A stretch of 49,262 nucleotides of DNA from a virus. The DNA lies in the IMG/VR virus record IMGVR_UViG_3300021170_000003, positions 1 through 49,262 of that record; one strand, 5' to 3'. A model generated the notes under the pieces. The model saw nothing but the letters and a program-made list of their open reading frames with translations, was not told the DNA's origin and searched no databases. Both the position numbers and the translations under genes were made by a program. This document shows positions 19,872-46,971 of this stretch, in pieces (positions within the stretch are counted from its first letter, which is position 1; each line of letters starts with the position of its first letter).

Positions 19872-19900
19872 AAGGCCCCTGCCTAATATGTGGGGGCCTT
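19872..19900 (+). terminator. GC-rich hairpin, terminator or attenuator
   Basis: AAGGCCCC (19872-19879) pairs perfectly with GGGGCCTT (19893-19900) around a 13-base loop. No T run follows. It lies right after one gene and before the ATP-grasp start, so it may reduce read-through. Confidence 0.45.
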
Positions 19901-19905
19901 CCAAC

Positions 19906-21189
19906 ATGAAGCCAGTTGAAAACGTGACGTGTGCGGTAGTTGATTACGGCAACTTCTTGAGTCTTGCTGATAAGCTTGGTGAGACCTACAAGAAGGTCTA
20001 TTACTACACGCCGTTTGAGACTGAGTACCGTGACATCAGCCGATGCGTGACTGGTTATGGCTCACCCAACATCGAGTGTATCGAGTCTATCTTTGGTCCT
20101 GAGTTTGATAAGATTGACCTTTTCGTGTTTCCAGACATTGGCTTTGCTGAGCTTCAGAGGTTTCTTGAGAAGTCTGGTAAGAGCGTATGGGGCAGCCGAG
20201 AAGCTACAGACATCGAACTCTACCGCAGCTACTTCCTTGACGTGCTGGCAGATGTGGGTTTGCCTGTGCCTAAGGCAAAGGTTATAGTTGGCTTAGCTGC
20301 TCTTGAGGCTCACCTTGAACGAGTTGAGGACCGCTGGGTTAAGCTAGATGTGTTCAGGGAAAACATGGAAACATGGCACCACATAGACTACGAGCACAGT
20401 CTCCCAATGCTACGACACCTAAGCACAGTCTTCGGCGGCTGTAGCGAGGACATAACCTTCGTAGTACAGGAGCCAATAGATAACGCCGAAGAGCAAGGTT
20501 ATGACGGCTGGTGCATTGATGGTAGGTATCCCAAGATTAGCTTCCAAGGCTATGAGAAAAAGAACGAACTCTATCTTGGATCAGCTCTGGAGGCGCGAGA
20601 GATGCCAAAGCAAGTCCAGGCCGTGAATGAGAAGATGAGCAAGTTTTTGGAGAAGATTGGTTATAGGAACTTTTGGGCAACTGAGATACGCAATGAATTT
20701 TTCATTGACCCAACACCGAGAATGGCAGGCCAAAGCCAAGAGCATCTTCAGGAAAGCTGCCCTAACTTGGCTGATATTATCTGGTCAGGGTCAAACGGAA
20801 AACTTATTGAACCCACCTTCACACACAAGTTTGCTGCGTCCGCCACGCTCCATTACAAGGAAGTCCCAGGAGACTCCAACTGGAAGTCCGTAAAGATTCC
20901 CAGCTCCGTCCAACGTTGGTTCAAGCTAGCCAACTGCCACAGAGACGGCAACATCTTCAACTTCCCCCCAGGCCGCAACGACGAAATCGGAGTTACCATC
21001 GGCCTTGGAGATACCGTCGAGCAAGCCATCGCTCATGTCAAGTCCAACCTCGAAGCAGTCAAGCATGAGCCAATAGAGGCCGAGATAGCAGGCTTAGTAG
21101 ACCTGCTCAAAGATATAGCCAAAGCTGAAGCCCACGGAGACAAGTTCAGTGACCAACCCTTACCAAAACCCGAATCAATCCTTGCCTGA
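19906..21189 (+). CDS. ATP-grasp ligase-like enzyme
   Basis: 427 aa from ATG 19906; ATG 19888 lies inside the hairpin loop and is less likely. An N-terminal Rossmann-like part (TCAVVDYGNFLSLADKL) precedes an ATP-grasp-like core: GSREATDIELYRSYF (96-110), WVKLDVFRENMETWHH (144-159), VQEPIDNAEEQGYDGW (187-202) and ATEIRNEFFIDPTPRM (258-273), where E and N/D residues would bind Mg-ATP. The order resembles PurD-type and peptide-ligase ATP-grasp proteins, which join a carboxylate to an amine through an acyl phosphate. Substrate unknown. It sits between virion and lysis genes, so it may modify a virion or cell-wall component. Confidence 0.6.
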   Translation: MKPVENVTCAVVDYGNFLSLADKLGETYKKVYYYTPFETEYRDISRCVTGYGSPNIECIESIFGPEFDKIDLFVFPDIGFAELQRFLEKSGKSVWGSREATDIELYRSYFLDVLADVGLPVPKAKVIVGLAALEAHLERVEDRWVKLDVFRENMETWHHIDYEHSLPMLRHLSTVFGGCSEDITFVVQEPIDNAEEQGYDGWCIDGRYPKISFQGYEKKNELYLGSALEAREMPKQVQAVNEKMSKFLEKIGYRNFWATEIRNEFFIDPTPRMAGQSQEHLQESCPNLADIIWSGSNGKLIEPTFTHKFAASATLHYKEVPGDSNWKSVKIPSSVQRWFKLANCHRDGNIFNFPPGRNDEIGVTIGLGDTVEQAIAHVKSNLEAVKHEPIEAEIAGLVDLLKDIAKAEAHGDKFSDQPLPKPESILA

Positions 21190-38112: not shown

Positions 38113-38439
38113 ATGGAAAAGCAACTCCTATTCTCGCTTACCAAGAAAGACTTTGTTATCCAGACCTTCTGTACTGGTGGTAAAGGTGGTCAGCATCGGA
38201 ACGCTAAGCAGAACGGTGTCCGCATCCTTCACCCAGCTAGCGGGGCTGTGGCTGAGCATCGTGATGGGCGTGACCAGTTCCTAAACAAGCGGGAAGCCTT
38301 CAAAAAGCTGGTCGAATCCTCAACGTTCAAGGCTTGGCACAGGACGGAAGTGGCTAAGCGGTTGGGCCTGCTCAAAGATGTTGATAGAACTGTAGATGAG
38401 CAGATGCAAGAACAGAACCTTAAAATCGAATACTTCTAG
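38113..38439 (+). CDS. RF-1/ArfB-like GGQ-domain protein
   Basis: 108 aa, ATG after AAAGG. TFCTGGKGGQHRNAKQNGVRI (C20-) carries the GGQ tripeptide at 25-27, which hydrolyses peptidyl-tRNA in class I release factors and the rescue factor ArfB. ASGAVAEHRDGRDQFLNKREA continues the family pattern. The codon-recognition domains of full release factors are absent, so a ribosome-rescue role is likely. In this island it may keep host ribosomes working during infection, possibly when tRNAs are damaged. Confidence 0.75.
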   Translation: MEKQLLFSLTKKDFVIQTFCTGGKGGQHRNAKQNGVRILHPASGAVAEHRDGRDQFLNKREAFKKLVESSTFKAWHRTEVAKRLGLLKDVDRTVDEQMQEQNLKIEYF

Positions 38440-41586: not shown

Positions 41587-42657
41587 TTAAGGCTTGGTTT
41601 GGGCTTGCTGGATATCCAGTAGTCCTCTTAAGTCTGCTTGTTGGATACGTTGGTCAAGGATGCGGAGAGCCATCTGAACCGCAGCATCGGTTGGTTTCTT
41701 ACCTTTGCTATCCCTCTTGTCTTGAGGTTGAGGAGAGTCTGGCCTGCCACAGGCTTTACAAAATCTATTGATGCTGATGTTGTGAGAGCAGACCAGCTCA
41801 CCATTTAAGGTATAGAGTATGTCTGCTTTGTTTGAATAGTTCTTGGATTTGGGTTTGATGGTAATTTTACTTTCTAGGTCAGCTAGTACTTTAACTTGAG
41901 CTTCACTAGGGATTAGTTTGATGGAGGCTTCGACACGGCTGAACTCACCACATCGGAGCTTGATGCGAACGACGCATTCCATTTGGCCATTGCGGTTGAT
42001 AACTAGCTCAACCGGAGAGCTAAAATGGTCCCAATCGGTGCCAGAGAAAAAAGCTTTCATGTTAACGTGGCTGTGGATGCGGCCAATGGTGCCTTCTTCT
42101 TTGGACTGGTCGAGGAAGGTGCTTTCAGCGGTAGCTTCTCCAACTTCCTGCTTGTTGAAGTACATCCCCTCCCGGTCGATGTAATGGAGCCATCCATCTT
42201 TCTCGGTAGTGCCTTTTAGGTTGGCAATCCACTCAACGTCGAGCTGGCGGCATAAGAAAATCCACTCGCTATAAAGGTCGAATGGGATTTGGACTTCAGG
42301 CTGAGATGTGACAAGTGGACAGCCCTTAATGTCTTTGCATTCAAATGTAAGTGGTTTATCGGACTTGAGTGTTTCCCTCTCGTTGGGAATTGTCTCCCAG
42401 CCACAGAGCTTACATTTGGTTTCGGTAAGTCTATAAACGATAGGTTTGTTGTAGAGATCACAACTTTGAGTTAAGCAAACTCGTAGAGATTGCTCTGAAA
42501 TATGGAGGTTAGGAGGCGAACTTGTTAGTATCGTAGGCCATCCACAGCTCCTGCAAGAGATTGACTCAACTAAGTTGTAGCTTATAAGCTTACTATAGAG
42601 TTTACAGCTAACTCTGTCACAAAATCTAAGTTCAGTTCTAGCTTGGTTTTGACTCAT
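41587..42657 (-). CDS. JAB/JAMM protease with zinc ribbons (deubiquitinase-like)
   Basis: 356 aa, ATG after AAAGGAGATA. Metal-binding JAMM motif HSHVNMKAFFSGTDWD at 195-210: H195, H197, S205, D208 in exact HxH-x7-SxxD spacing, with E142 (DVEWIANLKG) as the upstream glutamate. Two tandem zinc ribbons precede it (C13/C18..C35/C38 with GW; C61/C66..C82/C85 with GW) and another CxxC ends the chain (C300/C303). JAB enzymes cut isopeptide bonds or mature ubiquitin-like proteins. It belongs to one leftward set with E1- and E2-like genes, so it likely processes or removes the modifier. Confidence 0.8.
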   Translation of the reverse strand: MSQNQARTELRFCDRVSCKLYSKLISYNLVESISCRSCGWPTILTSSPPNLHISEQSLRVCLTQSCDLYNKPIVYRLTETKCKLCGWETIPNERETLKSDKPLTFECKDIKGCPLVTSQPEVQIPFDLYSEWIFLCRQLDVEWIANLKGTTEKDGWLHYIDREGMYFNKQEVGEATAESTFLDQSKEEGTIGRIHSHVNMKAFFSGTDWDHFSSPVELVINRNGQMECVVRIKLRCGEFSRVEASIKLIPSEAQVKVLADLESKITIKPKSKNYSNKADILYTLNGELVCSHNISINRFCKACGRPDSPQPQDKRDSKGKKPTDAAVQMALRILDQRIQQADLRGLLDIQQAQTKP

Positions 42658-42668
42658 AAATATCTCCT

Positions 42669-43217
42669 TTAGTCTAGGGGTGGAATTGATTTGTATTGGG
42701 TTGGGTGAAAGATGAACTTGTTAAACTCAACTGGTACATAGTTGGTGTATTCGATGGCAAATAGCCGACGCCATGCTGGACACTTTACTTTATATGTATT
42801 AATGTCTAAGCCTGTGTTATGGAAGCCATCCCAAATGTTGTGTAGATGGCCGTGGATATTGAGGGTACACCCATTAGGTAGGGTTAGTGCTGGCTCATGT
42901 GTAAGCCAGCAGTTGCGGTACTTAAGGGCTTGACAGGCAAACTGGAAGCCATGATGCATCCACCAGTCTGGGCTGTGCTGCCGGTCGTGGTTGCCAACAA
43001 TCAGAATTTTGCGCCCAGGCAGCCAGGCTAACTGGTTGGTAAAGAGCTGCCATTTACCTATGGCCACGTCGCCCAGGTGAATGATTAGATCATCCTGCTG
43101 GACAAGCTGTGTCCAGTTCTTGATAATCAAGTCAGTGAAGTTGGGTGGGCGGTCACAATAGGTTGCAATGTTCTGGTGGTTGAAGTGTGTGTCTGAGATA
43201 AGCCAAGTGCGGCTCAT
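42669..43217 (-). CDS. Calcineurin-like metallophosphoesterase
   Basis: 182 aa from ATG 43217, which overlaps the previous stop (ATGA); GTG 43232 is less likely. SDTHF (about 8-12), LGDVAIGKW, VGNHDRQHSPDWW, LTHEP and IHGHLH give all metal-binding motifs of the family. Small enzymes of this class dephosphorylate nucleotides or RNA ends. Its place between JAB and E1 genes is of interest; substrate unknown. Confidence 0.8.
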   Translation of the reverse strand: MSRTWLISDTHFNHQNIATYCDRPPNFTDLIIKNWTQLVQQDDLIIHLGDVAIGKWQLFTNQLAWLPGRKILIVGNHDRQHSPDWWMHHGFQFACQALKYRNCWLTHEPALTLPNGCTLNIHGHLHNIWDGFHNTGLDINTYKVKCPAWRRLFAIEYTNYVPVEFNKFIFHPTQYKSIPPLD

Positions 43218-43351
43218 GACGGAGTTCTCCACTTGTTAGTACTTGGATCAATGCCATGTACAGGACAAAATGTATGGTTATCTAACTCAGCACATCTACA
43301 ATCTGGCCTGTTATAACTTTCTTCTGACCATTCTAGTTTTTCATCTGGCAT
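43214..43351 (-). CDS. Cysteine-rich small protein, 45 aa
   Basis: ATG 5 bases after the E1 stop, with GGAG spanning its end. CRC (18-20) and FCPVHG form a possible Cys/His metal site. Overlaps the phosphoesterase start. Translational coupling supports it as real. Confidence 0.55.
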   Translation of the reverse strand: MPDEKLEWSEESYNRPDCRCAELDNHTFCPVHGIDPSTNKWRTPS

Positions 43352-43355
43352 AAGC

Positions 43356-44018
43356 TTATAGCTCCTGAAGTTCGATTTTGTGCGTGGCTGGGTTGAAGCC
43401 AAGCCGGTAGTTGAATGTGTCGGTGTGGAGAGGGTGGACAATGCGATGGACTGCCATTGAAGCAGCCATAATGCATGGCCCAGCCCACACAGGTACCGAG
43501 TTATAGCCACGTTGGCGTTCTGACTCAAGCGTGAACATGGCCGGTGAGTCGGTACAGCCTCCATATTCACCCTCTGCGCTGGCTTCTATGTAGCTTATAT
43601 TGTTGGCTTTGGCATAGTCATAGAGTTCGACGCGGCTGCTATGTTGGTCTGTTGCGGCTACTATCCAATCGCTAGGACAAGTTTTAGCCGTTTCAGGGTA
43701 CCATATCCGATAAAATGTTGATATATTGCAGCGTGGTACTCTGTCTAGTATGATCATGCTTAAGGCATGAACTTTAGGATAGCCTATGGTAGCAGGACCA
43801 TAGGGGAGGCGATTGAGATTGGATGCTTCTATCGTATCACCGTCCCAGATGTAGAGCTGAGGAACGCCAATCATGGCTAAGAGTAGAGCTATCCATGAGC
43901 CGACTCCCCCAACGCCTATGATAGAGACAGCGTTAGGGATAGATAGGTTGAGAGGTTGCTGGCGTTCCAGCCGAGCGGTTTCAAAAGCCTGGGTCTGGAT
44001 CGAGACTAATGAGGTCAT
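43356..44018 (-). CDS. ThiF/E1-like adenylating enzyme
   Basis: 220 aa from ATG 44018, with AAGGAGAAGAAA before it; a longer open frame is a shadow of the upstream gene. GVGGVGSWIA (35-44) binds ATP, WDGDTIEASNLNR (58-70) holds the D-x-D...N-x-x-R set, and AATD (121-124) is the acidic adenylation residue. C155 (GGC) and C182 (GPC) could form a thioester. E1 enzymes adenylate the C-terminus of a ubiquitin-like protein. It has no CxxC zinc pair of MoeB. Located between the E2-like and phosphoesterase genes. Confidence 0.8.
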   Translation of the reverse strand: MTSLVSIQTQAFETARLERQQPLNLSIPNAVSIIGVGGVGSWIALLLAMIGVPQLYIWDGDTIEASNLNRLPYGPATIGYPKVHALSMIILDRVPRCNISTFYRIWYPETAKTCPSDWIVAATDQHSSRVELYDYAKANNISYIEASAEGEYGGCTDSPAMFTLESERQRGYNSVPVWAGPCIMAASMAVHRIVHPLHTDTFNYRLGFNPATHKIELQEL

Positions 44019-45237
44019 TTTCTTCTCCTTGTTCTTCTTGTTGTTGTTGTTCCTGTTCGATTCGAGTATATGGTGAAGTAGTGGGGTTAGGGGTAGGATG
44101 TTCGAGTAGGTTAAGGTCTTCAATTGAATCAGGTTTAGGTAATAAACTTTGTTCACGGTAGCCATAACCAACCTTAAACCAAGGCAATAGACTTCTGGGT
44201 ATGGACCGACGGATTTGAGGGAACCAGGACCTATGATTTGTTTGTAGTAGGCTGGTCATGTTAACGGTTTGCATGGCGCGGTTTATGCTATCAGCCAAGT
44301 GAGTTATAGCTTGAGGGCTTAGTGGCCCATCTGGTGGATCGGATATTTGCATGCAAACACTCGATCTTTTCGCATGAGGTAAATCATAATGTTCAGTTTT
44401 GCTTAACCGCAAGCCTAGCTCATTCAGGGTACGGTTATCGGGAAATAGTTTTATACAAAAGCTTGTATATACAGGCTTATGTTGAATAGCATCCCACACA
44501 TGGACCTTATGATTTACCTCATGCGTAAATCTCGTAATTCTGATAGTGACTGGAAAGTTCAGTAGTAGCTGATAATAGGTTGGGTAAGCGTATGTTTCTG
44601 TGTACGCCCAACATATAGTATATGGTGGTTGCTGTGCCCATTCAGGTATTACATTTAATGTAGCAAGATTATGCTTGAGGGTACTTAGTAACACATTTTT
44701 TTCATGGCATTCAATATTTAATTGTTGTGCTCTTTTGTTAGCATCTTCTATGATTGAGGAAGATTGTTTTTCGGCATTTGCTTTGATAAGTTCTGCTTCA
44801 ATCTTGGCATCGGAAGTGATTTTTTTGCGTAGTCCTGCCAGGGCTTTGGGACCAGCTACAGCAAAGTCGGTGAGATCAAGCTTGAAGATGCCGTTGCCCA
44901 TAGCTAAATAGGCTGGGCTTGAGGCCACAACCAGCTCCTGTTCGACTTGTTGATTGTCAATGAGAATTTCAGCTATAGCTTTGGTTATGGCGTGTGCCCA
45001 TACTTTAACTTTTATCCAGTGAGCATGGGCAAATACGTTATCTAAACTGGTGTTAGCAGAAATGTAGAGATTGCTGCTAATTTTATTCCTGTCTTTAGTT
45101 GTCAGGTGCTTGAGAATTTCAGGTACAGGAGGTACAGGATGTGAGCACTCCATAAGTTTACAGATGTTGTTTAGGCGGCTAATACGAACCTTTACTTTCT
45201 GTGGTTGAGTTGGATTAGATTGTGCTTGGACTGACAT
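43981..45237 (-). CDS. E2-like (ubiquitin-conjugating) protein, candidate
   Basis: 418 aa, ATG after AGAGGAGAATT. A helical N-part with coiled-coil (about 130-195) precedes a domain from about 203 resembling the E2 fold: strands YYQLLLNFPVTIRITRF, then LPHAKRSSVCMQISD with H288 and C295 in the HPN...C relation, GPLSPQAITHLADSINRAMQ as the following helix. The tail is Q/E-rich. No known family is certain. Overlap with the E1 gene (38 bases) and proximity to JAB support a conjugation role. The motif is weak, so this is an inference. Confidence 0.5.
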   Translation of the reverse strand: MSVQAQSNPTQPQKVKVRISRLNNICKLMECSHPVPPVPEILKHLTTKDRNKISSNLYISANTSLDNVFAHAHWIKVKVWAHAITKAIAEILIDNQQVEQELVVASSPAYLAMGNGIFKLDLTDFAVAGPKALAGLRKKITSDAKIEAELIKANAEKQSSSIIEDANKRAQQLNIECHEKNVLLSTLKHNLATLNVIPEWAQQPPYTICWAYTETYAYPTYYQLLLNFPVTIRITRFTHEVNHKVHVWDAIQHKPVYTSFCIKLFPDNRTLNELGLRLSKTEHYDLPHAKRSSVCMQISDPPDGPLSPQAITHLADSINRAMQTVNMTSLLQTNHRSWFPQIRRSIPRSLLPWFKVGYGYREQSLLPKPDSIEDLNLLEHPTPNPTTSPYTRIEQEQQQQEEQGEENDLISLDPDPGF

Positions 45238-45436
45238 AATTCTCCTCTCTTTCTTCTAGTTGTTGAGTATAGGGCTTGATGAGCCTGTAGACAATGCTAC
45301 TTTCGGCGACCCACTCAATACCATAAGTGTCAGCTATAACTACTGCACCATCATTAAGTCGTCGCAGCATGGTGCCTAGTCTAAGCTCAGATGGCGGAAC
45401 TAGATAGAGTGGGTCGCCTGGGTTGAGTTGGTTCAT
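45215..45436 (-). CDS. Small protein, 73 aa
   Basis: ATG after GGAGAAGTCCCC. Contains ELRLGTMLRRLNDGAVVIADTYGIEWV, a small beta-barrel-like pattern. Overlaps the E2-like start by 23 bases. A partner of the conjugation genes is possible; no direct evidence. Confidence 0.55.
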   Translation of the reverse strand: MNQLNPGDPLYLVPPSELRLGTMLRRLNDGAVVIADTYGIEWVAESSIVYRLIKPYTQQLEEREENYVSPSTI

Positions 45437-45459
45437 GGGGACTTCTCCATTTCTAAGCC

Positions 45460-45714
45460 TTAGTCTAGGGCTTTGAGGGGCTTTAGGTCATTACAGACTG
45501 TACAACGCCATCCACCTAAGCCACTAAAGGCTTTCTTGGCAAAGTTATGGAGGCGATTACCGGCTCCAAATAGTGTGTCCTGGGCTTGGGAACCTGCTGT
45601 CATGGTGTTGAATGGGACTAGATATAGCATAGTGTTGCCTTGCCAGCGGGTGCCAGGGGACTTGAGTGGCACAGCTCGAAGACTGATGCAGCCGCACTTA
45701 ATAAGCTTGGTCAT
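45460..45714 (-). CDS. Small zinc-containing protein, 84 aa
   Basis: Start ATG 45714 after a (GA)n tract (a start at 45780 would overlap the next gene). KCGC (7-10) and WRCTVC (69-74) may bind zinc. The leader and MTKL are shared with the gene at 41314. Unknown function. Confidence 0.55.
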   Translation of the reverse strand: MTKLIKCGCISLRAVPLKSPGTRWQGNTMLYLVPFNTMTAGSQAQDTLFGAGNRLHNFAKKAFSGLGGWRCTVCNDLKPLKALD

Positions 45715-45733
45715 GTCTCTCTCTCTCTTTCTC

Positions 45734-45907
45734 TCAGTTATTATTAGGTTTGGCTCGGCTAGGTTTTTCGTCCCAGCCATAGTTATTAGTACCTAATTGG
45801 AATGGTGGAGGAGTCATACCCATTTTGTCTAAGCATGGACCACAATAGCCGGTGCCCATAAATATCCATCGGGTACCACATCCTTTACAAATTCCGTCGT
45901 CTTCCAT
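45734..45907 (-). CDS. Small zinc-ribbon protein, 57 aa
   Basis: MEDDGICKGCGTRW and YCGPCLDKMG give CxxC/CxxC. ATG after TAGAGTTTTATGG; ribosome site is weak (GGAGG lies about 20 bases before). The C-terminus is polar. Small proteins of this kind recur throughout this region. Confidence 0.55.
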   Translation of the reverse strand: MEDDGICKGCGTRWIFMGTGYCGPCLDKMGMTPPPFQLGTNNYGWDEKPSRAKPNNN

Positions 45908-45924
45908 AAAACTCTAGCCTCCTT

Positions 45925-46134
45925 TTAGTCAGTTTTGGTTGAGTGCATAATAGCGTCAGATGTGTTATGGCGCTCATAAGGGCGTTCTAATCGGAGGTCG
46001 TGACAAGCTGCACACTCACGGCGGTACTCACCAGCCTAATCGTCCCATACAATATAGTTGCGCTCGGTGCAAGGACTAATCTCGCGGGTACAGTTGATAC
46101 AATTGTTGTTGGCGGGTTGGAATGCCCAGCTCAT
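45925..46134 (-). pseudogene. Zinc-ribbon gene interrupted by an in-frame amber codon
   Basis: From ATG 46134 the frame reads 32 codons (MSWAFQPANNNCINC...), then TAG at 46036-46038, then 36 codons (AGEYRRECAACHDLRL...) to TAA 45925. NCINC and ECAAC would form one zinc site across the TAG, so the downstream half looks like part of the same protein. ATGA overlaps the previous stop. Either a recent nonsense mutation, a sequence error, or amber read-through. Many other genes here end at TAG, so general recoding is unlikely. Confidence 0.6.
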
Positions 46135-46286
46135 GGCTCCACCTTCTCAATACAATCAACCCCCCAATGAACATAACGAGTTTTCATCTCAATCCTAGCT
46201 AAATTTTCTGCGGCCTCTTGGCTACAAGCTTGTACCTCTACCATTTCCTGATCTGACACATGAAGAAAAACTCGATAAGTAGGCAT
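46131..46286 (-). CDS. Small protein, 51 aa
   Basis: ATG after GGAGACTGAAAACT. Sequence begins MPTYRVFLHVSDQEMVEVQAC, with an alpha/beta pattern reminiscent of a small ferredoxin-like fold, and ends WGVDCIEKVEP. Stop overlaps the next ATG (ATGA), showing translational coupling. Confidence 0.6.
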   Translation of the reverse strand: MPTYRVFLHVSDQEMVEVQACSQEAAENLARIEMKTRYVHWGVDCIEKVEP

Positions 46287-46316
46287 AGTTTTCAGTCTCC
46301 TCTACTCTGAAAGAAT

Positions 46317-46373
46317 GGCTAAGCGATGTTCTGCTTAGCCCAAGTGGTTGACCTTGGCTAGTGTTCCCTAGCC
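46317..46373 (-). terminator. Two hairpins downstream of the beta-grasp gene
   Basis: GGCTAAGC/GCTTAGCC (46317-46340) is a perfect 8-bp stem, and GGCTAG/CTAGCC (46356-46373) a 6-bp stem. Read leftward, each follows the beta-grasp stop. No long T tract, so partial termination or RNA stabilisation. Confidence 0.45.
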
Positions 46374-46388
46374 TAGGGATGAGATGGT

Positions 46389-46772
46389 TTAGGCGGCATC
46401 TTCCGTGGTAGGCTGAGTATCCGACTCCTCTTCCTCTTCCTCCTCCTCCTCCTCTGGCTCAAGCTCGGCTTCAGTTGAGGCAGGAGTTTCCTCAGCAGTC
46501 GGCTCTGTGGCAACGCTGTCCTTGGCTGTAATGCCAATGGACTTTGCGCTGGAAGCCGGAGCGTCGACCTGTGCCTCAGTTGTGGCAGATTTGCCGTCGA
46601 TCACCACGTTGAAGCTGGTGACGCCATGCTCACGAGCCAAAGCTTGAGCCACTTCAAGCAGGGATGGCTCCCCATTGCACTGGATCGTGCCTTTGCTCTG
46701 ACCGTTAACGAAGGTTTCCATCTGGTGGGTTATAACAACATGCTCGGTAATTCTGATTTCTCCAGTACTCAC
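46389..46772 (-). CDS. Beta-grasp (ubiquitin-like) candidate with acidic tail
   Basis: 127 aa, GTG start after AAAAGGAGAA. The first 90 residues suit a beta-grasp fold: METFVNGQSKGTIQ strands, SLLEVAQALAREHG helix, FNVVIDGK strand and SIGITAKD last strand. The C-terminus has 11 glutamates in a 12-residue window (LEPEEEEEEEEE) and no terminal GG. Such folds act as ubiquitin-like modifiers; a JAB protease could trim it. Alternatively an acidic DNA-mimic. It is first in the leftward unit from a strong promoter. Fold by eye only. Confidence 0.5.
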   Translation of the reverse strand: MSTGEIRITEHVVITHQMETFVNGQSKGTIQCNGEPSLLEVAQALAREHGVTSFNVVIDGKSATTEAQVDAPASSAKSIGITAKDSVATEPTAEETPASTEAELEPEEEEEEEEEESDTQPTTEDAA

Positions 46773-46942: not shown

Positions 46943-46971
46943 ATTATAACAGAATAATTGGAGCTTGTCAA
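46943..46971 (-). promoter_or_regulatory. Near-perfect sigma70 promoter, leftward
   Basis: TTGACA (46971-46966), exactly 17 bases, TATAAT (46948-46943). Both boxes match consensus fully. It reads left through the beta-grasp, E2, E1 and JAB genes. It directly follows the terminator at 47107-47142, so it starts a separate unit. Confidence 0.85.

Follow-up and report, generated by a model that had tools for sequence, protein, structure and literature searches.

Comparison with described systems

Conjugation of ubiquitin-like proteins (Ubl) in bacteria has so far been known mainly as an anti-phage weapon. In the Bil system BilA carries two Ubl domains, BilD an inactive and an active adenylation domain together with a Cys domain, and BilB a CEHH motif (PMC11354881). 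Attachment by bacteria of Ubl tags which interfere with phage assembly has been reported (Hor 2024, as cited in PMC12660748). Other described sets are the Cap2/Cap3 proteins of type II CBASS, the PRTRC genes and the polyUbl operons. This work concerns four minus-strand genes of the IMG/VR viral record IMGVR_UViG_3300021170_000003, whose 49,262 bases are together referred to as the window. The genes encode a Ubl, a likely E2-like enzyme, an E1-like adenylyltransferase and a JAB/JAMM metalloprotease and, judged from their sequences and from structure models, they quite probably constitute a phage-specific cassette for the reversible conjugation of the Ubl. The window also encodes an SU10-type portal, a capsid protein, a family A DNA polymerase and a lysozyme-like open reading frame (ORF), and was therefore assigned to a tailed phage of bacteria; the cassette is located outside the structural gene module. 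The ORF list confirmed position and strand of the four genes as given in an initial annotation made from the sequence alone:

46389..46772, minus strand: Ubl of 127 amino acids, recognised by its AlphaFold2 (AF2) fold, by Foldseek and by a hidden Markov model (HMM) built from relatives only
43981..45237, minus strand: likely E2-like protein of 418 amino acids with the putative active-site residues H288 and C295, recognised by AF2, Foldseek and the relative-only HMM
43356..44018 (start possibly up to 44171), minus strand: E1-like adenylyltransferase of 220 amino acids with one ThiF domain (Pfam ThiF, 7.7e-25)
41587..42657, minus strand: JAB/JAMM metalloprotease of 356 amino acids with a Cys-rich N-terminus and the catalytic residues E142, H195, H197, S205 and D208

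The initial annotation had seen in these genes the plan of Bil, CBASS Cap2/Cap3 and PRTRC systems. The set of components is the same, but the features defining each of the three are lacking. For this comparison operon types 6a to 6e were taken from PMC1779556 and the Bil features from PMC11354881. As in Bil, the Ubl, E2, JAMM deubiquitinase and E1 are separate genes, BilC is found by the JAB profile, and 8tyx is among the matches of the Ubl model. Unlike the tandem domains of BilA, the window Ubl is predicted to have one beta-grasp domain followed by a disordered tail, and the E1, with its 220 amino acids and single ThiF domain, differs from BilD with its two adenylation domains and Cys domain. 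At the spacing of C138, E144, H146 and H151 of BilB, the window protein has P301, D303 and P308 after C295, and thus no CEHH motif; in the clade of the window the conserved His precedes the Cys. Gene order differs too, and the genes are carried by phage genomes.

Type II CBASS shares a related E1 domain (PADLOC E1-E2, 1e-13) and a JAMM protease partner. The PADLOC match covers the E1 half only, however: in the window E1 and E2 are separate ORFs accompanied by a dedicated Ubl gene, and no CD-NTase family was found among the part of the window ORFs that was scanned. With PRTRC the cassette has in common separate Ubl, E2-like, E1 and JAB genes. PRTRC_ThiF and PRTRC_A are matched very weakly, in this comparison by NCBIfam scores only, and far below the cut-offs (11.6 of 101.8 bits for PRTRC_A, 18.5 of 144.75 for ThiF). 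PRTRC_B and PRTRC_C gave no match, 21 aligned E2s gave no PRTRC match either, and the E2 of operon type 6d, to which PRTRC corresponds by description (Iyer 2006, PMC1779556), has its His after the Cys, whereas here it stands before it. PolyUbl operons (type 6e of the same work) likewise bring a Ubl, an E2-like fold, an E1 and a JAB together at a single locus, but with a usually repeated Ubl, an E1-JAB fusion and an inactive E2, in contrast to the separate ORFs and single Ubl of the window. The TAPI/TAPK proteins of Lambda and T1 are a phage Ubl with a JAB peptidase, encoded among tail genes without E1 or E2. By defining features the cassette is not Bil, CBASS Cap2/Cap3, PRTRC or polyUbl; it would work like them.

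Related cassettes and the four proteins

The order Ubl-E2-E1-JAB, on a single strand, is found in 22 other viral contigs, all of uncultured phages. Nineteen of these were identified by profiles of the four proteins, L020 and L039 being counted as one contig; the remaining three (L172, L175 and L177) are held-out cases, which an independent scan retrieved by the JAB of the window's group alone; they too have all four genes, arranged likewise. L022 follows this plan with an E2 recognised by alignment, while in L030, L032 and L070 the order is Ubl-E1-E2-JAB or a likely equivalent. In L020 (8237-9979) and L039 the cassette contains a tandem pair of E2-like genes.

These relatives escaped single-sequence searches: tblastn of E1, E2 and JAB against 50,697 phage records gave no match, and neither did scans of IMG/VR with E1 and E2. 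The first ones were obtained with a degenerate DNA pattern encoding WDxD..E..NLNR of the E1, which yielded two contigs with the order Ubl, a protein of about 282 amino acids, E1 and JAB; an alignment of the first E1s then retrieved 80 viral loci. Two pattern matches were set aside, L002 as MoeB-like and L003 as an unrelated ThiF protein.

Profiles of 19 to 20 relatives per protein, built with the window left out and searched against 6,340 ORFs including its own, match the window proteins with E-values of 5.5e-55 (E1), 3.6e-39 (JAB), 1.6e-21 (E2) and 6.1e-6 (Ubl). Each profile picks exactly its own window ORF, the second-best window ORF having an E-value above 1 in all four cases. In the E1 tree the 26 cassette E1s, that of the window included, form one clade (98/97) apart from cell-type and crAss-type E1s, within which the window groups with L011 to L014, L021, L172, L175 and L177 (96/87). 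A scan of bacterial genomes gave at least 80 loci with TcdA-like E1s, and no E2 or Ubl match among the loci listed; a plasmid search gave no match. The case regarded by the initial annotation as fatal to its proposal, relatives in which E1 and JAB occur without these neighbours, did not occur among the near relatives, where the 22 contigs keep all four genes in order. It did occur further away, in some distant contigs with E1 and JAB and no recognisable Ubl or E2 of the window type (type A), many of which encode Ubl and E2-like genes of their own.

The E1 carries the motifs GVGGVGS and WDGDTIEASNLNR noted at the outset, and its assignment to ThiF/E1 holds. Invariant among 19 aligned sequences are R19, GxGGxG, D59, D61, N67, R70, K82 and D124, the ATP-site residues included, and the ATP-binding GxGGxG, Arg, Lys and Asp of the E1-like (ThiF/UBA) superfamily are present. 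The window E1 shares with its close relatives in the alignment a cysteine in a GPC motif, C182. The JAMM protease has the exact motif HxH-x7-SxxD seen by the initial annotation (HSHVNMKAFFSGTD, with H195, H197, S205 and D208), to which Glu142 can be added, completing the set found in JAB/JAMM isopeptidases; the E/H/H/S/D residues are invariant in all 17 aligned proteins. Alone, the window JAB matches Pfam Prok-JAB below threshold (1.8e-4), and the profile of its family matches the AMSH-type deubiquitinases AMSH/STAMBP (2e-4) and BilC (0.0055).

Neither the E2-like protein nor the Ubl gave a convincing match to any family when used alone in library searches, and for this reason their identity represented the open questions of the locus. 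For the Ubl, AF2 predicts a core at about residues 16-83 (strands 16-22 and 25-32, helix 38-49, strand 54-58, helix 66-69, strand 78-83) with a pLDDT of about 90, hence a beta-beta-alpha-beta-alpha-beta topology, and a tail disordered from about residue 84. Nearly all top Foldseek matches of this model are ubiquitin-fold proteins, with modest E-values and probabilities near 1, among them 8tyx_A, the Ubl of a bacterial Ubl-deubiquitinase (BilC) complex. The sequence profile searched against the PDB did not find ubiquitin, while the comparison of folds did find the ubiquitin fold, in agreement with the earlier description of a beta-grasp protein of 127 amino acids with an acidic tail.

The E2-like protein had been described as carrying an HPN...C region with H288 and C295. 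Both residues are present, but the site reads PHAKRSSVC (PHxxxxxxC) and is not a literal HPN. C295 is the sole strictly invariant residue across the E2 candidates (21/21 aligned), and both residues are invariant in the nine-member clade of the window; a subgroup composed of L022, L024, L026, L038 and L070 mostly has the classical HPN...C site. Searched against the PDB, the profile of this HPN subgroup finds only E2s (30/30 matches at E<1, best 0.01), and E2s are eight of the nine matches of the whole-family profile (best 0.0087). The AF2 model of the window protein contains a long helix (130-193) and a core at about 195-345, mostly with a pLDDT of 84-95, which in Foldseek is best matched by UEV/E2 domains, first of all the UEV domain of Tsg101. 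An E2-like core is accordingly predicted around C295, where the initial annotation had called for a structure prediction, and its guesses of an E2 and a Ubl have gained support from related gene sets, from the conservation of active-site residues and from the predicted folds.

Proposed pathway and rival explanations

What the sequences and models show is homology, conservation of catalytic residues and of gene order, and predicted folds; how the reaction proceeds, in which order the Ubl is passed on and to what it is attached we infer as follows. A Ubl with a C-terminal extension would be matured, probably by the JAMM protease, after which the single-domain E1 would adenylate its C-terminus using ATP, as suggested by the invariant ATP-site residues. 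The Ubl would then be handed to Cys295 of the E2-like protein, perhaps directly from the adenylate since the E1s of the family have no cysteine in common, and passed by the E2 to an amine on target proteins, no E3 having been seen. The JAMM protease would finally strip it off again. Since replication genes surround the cassettes of T4-like and crAss-like lineages, the target is most likely to be sought among proteins of the infected cell or of the apparatus that replicates the phage. The initial annotation had suggested that host or virion proteins may be modified, or that conjugation defences of the host may be opposed.

Several observations weigh against this scheme. No cysteine is conserved across the aligned cassette E1s, and no E3 was seen and no target is known for the cassette. 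The Foldseek matches of the E2 model are weak (best E-value 0.04, TM-score 0.39 by target), the profile of the window clade alone matched no E2 in the PDB, and its link to the HPN subgroup is weak as well (hhalign probability 14). The window clade is tied to the E2 family through the HYH...CWG subgroup, which it matches with an hhalign probability of 85 and an E-value of 6.5e-6, and we therefore rate the product of 43981-45237 as likely, on sequence comparison and modelling, to be an E2-like enzyme.

The weakest point is the C-terminus of the Ubl, where the initial annotation overlooked that the Gly usual in relatives is missing. While 20 of the 23 related Ubls end in Gly or in Gly plus one residue, the window Ubl lacks the exposed or exposable C-terminal Gly of a conjugating Ubl and has Ala88 at the aligned position, followed by 39 mostly acidic residues (89-127). 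A frameshift as cause was rejected, since no alternative frame of the DNA restores a Gly terminus. Ala takes the place of Gly in two relatives as well, in L175 with four more residues behind it and in L026 as the last residue. In L056 (7568-7948) a phage Ubl-like protein has an internal GG and then an acidic tail resembling that of the window Ubl. Ubiquitin tolerates its Gly76Ala exchange to some degree, so the window Ubl may still function; the competence of this particular copy is nonetheless uncertain, and its function less sure than that of the cassettes in which the Ubl ends in Gly.

The Ala and the acidic tail, together with the four small ORFs which separate Ubl and E2 here and are absent from near relatives, would also be explained if the system was decayed or altered in this phage, E1, E2 and JAB persisting next to a Ubl that has lost conjugation and whose action, if it has any, is non-covalent. 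We regard this as somewhat unlikely, considering that the active sites of all enzymes are intact, that L175 and L026 share the Ala and have their partner genes, and that the acidic extension after GG of the L056 protein offers a phage parallel for the tail. An altered C-terminus would suit an inhibitor too. The phage Ubl, E2 and E1 could engage or poison a Bil- or CBASS-type conjugation of the host, while the JAMM protease, whose active site is intact, frees proteins of the phage or the host from defence tags, and the reported Ubl tagging against phage assembly fits such a role in counter-defence. This explanation appears unlikely: a complete, co-inherited activation arm with conserved catalytic residues exceeds the needs of a stripping enzyme, and the conjugation-type Gly is kept in most relatives.

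Less likely still is a function in sulfur transfer. The Ubl would then serve as a thiocarboxylate donor of the ThiS/MoaD type for a sulfur-containing metabolite, tRNA or nucleotide, with the ThiF-like E1 activating it, the JAMM protease trimming it and the E2-like protein as acceptor enzyme. The single-domain ThiF/MoeB-like E1 without conserved Cys would agree with such a function, two relatives of the Ubl weakly match Pfam ThiS (0.0015), and operons for sulfur assimilation and siderophores with E1, JAB and Ubl are known (PMC1779556). The constant co-inherited partner is nevertheless an E2-like protein with an invariant Cys from a family matching E2s, and neither the scanned window genes nor the recurrent neighbours include a recognised rhodanese, cysteine desulfurase or other gene of sulfur metabolism. 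That E1 and JAB are neighbours by chance, with unconnected roles in metabolism or structure, and the E2 and Ubl calls wrong, can practically be dismissed, since the fruitless library searches with single E2 and Ubl proteins are outweighed by a four-gene order conserved in 22 other contigs and by relative-only profiles which recover the window proteins.

If reversible conjugation by the cassette is true, diverse phages inherit a complete Ubl-E2-E1-JAMM unit and viruses of bacteria run a protein tagging of their own, which would extend the early history of ubiquitin by a viral branch and provide biochemistry with minimal systems of four proteins.

Replication genes, a second cassette and surroundings

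In all eight contigs of T4-like type (L015, L018, L020, L023, L027, L029, L033 and L057) the Ubl gene comes directly after the genes of a gp44-like and a gp62-like clamp-loader protein and of a putative sliding clamp, 58-341 bp downstream of the last of them. The identification of this third gene as sliding clamp is weak, with PCNA matches at E-values of 0.08-0.9 and partly based on position.

Many contigs with E1 and JAB have these genes in the order JAB-E1. Their Ubl belongs to another family, in which a K-S-G tail is conserved and either is terminal or continues into an extension, and their E2-like protein has HSH...C-G. This second cassette, ordered Ubl-E2-JAB-E1, is found in Crassvirales, namely in cr111_1 (L180, NC_055880), whose E2-like protein and Ubl match 74 and 45 phage records respectively, and in the cultured crAss001 (L181, NC_049977 80000-89000), where it comprises gp79-gp78-gp77-gp76. 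Compared with the window, crAss001, with gp76 and gp77 as ThiF and metalloprotease genes, has a parallel set in another gene order and with an E1 of a separate clade, placed between the primase and uracil-DNA glycosylase genes. A similar set is present in Flavobacterium phage FpV4 (L182, NC_041872), the GxGGxG motif of its ThiF gene being unconfirmed. In all three phages the annotation of these genes goes no further than ThiF, metalloprotease or hypothetical. Homology of the two phage E2 types is suggested by the motif only, as the crAss-type E2 profile matched nothing in the PDB and hhalign against the type-A HPN group gave a near zero probability. In L106, a metagenome-assembled genome of Candidatus Collierbacteria which may contain a phage fragment at this point, a JAB gene adjoins an E1 from the crAss-type side of the tree.

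Since a parallel set sits, unannotated as such, in cultured crAss001, the idea of phage-borne conjugation is testable in a laboratory phage-host pair. From the position of the Ubl gene after clamp-loader and putative clamp genes in T4-like contigs, and from the primase and uracil-DNA glycosylase flanks in crAss001, one may speculate that phages control their own replisome by Ubl modification, in parallel to ubiquitin and SUMO on eukaryotic PCNA, a proposal we hold to be quite unlikely. A phage E1-E2-Ubl-JAB set was not met with in the open-access literature searched on bacterial Ubl systems and on jumbo, huge and crAss-like phages; subscription papers, specialist reviews of E1 and E2 folds among them, were outside this scope. 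Within the literature searched, neither the cassette of uncultured phages nor the unrecognised second version in Crassvirales was found to be described.

The other features of the window region are the following:

46943..46971, minus strand: match to a sigma70-type promoter upstream of the Ubl gene, a pattern only, without evidence of function
46131-46286, 45734-45907, 45460-45780 and 45215-45436, minus strand: four small ORFs in the interval between Ubl and E2, in no related cassette as far as seen
42669..43232, minus strand: metallophosphoesterase, phrog_547 (PHROG, 7e-32), a common phage gene

The promoter described earlier as near-perfect is correct as a pattern (TTGACA-17-TATAAT from 46971 to 46943, 12/12 positions, with TG ahead of the -10 box); over the whole region nine promoter-like sites were found where 12.6 are expected, and thus no excess. 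The early operon which the initial annotation placed under this promoter is a putative one. The metallophosphoesterase had also been noted, and lies between E1 and JAB; this is not so in related contigs and places the gene outside the conserved cassette. On the plus strand, at 19888-21189 just ahead of the lysozyme-like ORF, is encoded a protein of 433 amino acids which has no Pfam match and looks ATP-grasp-like by eye. The product of a short plus-strand gene at 38113-38439 contains the RF-1 (GGQ) domain of peptidyl-tRNA hydrolases (Pfam, 5e-12) and is a stand-alone release-factor-like protein, possibly with a role in ribosome rescue.

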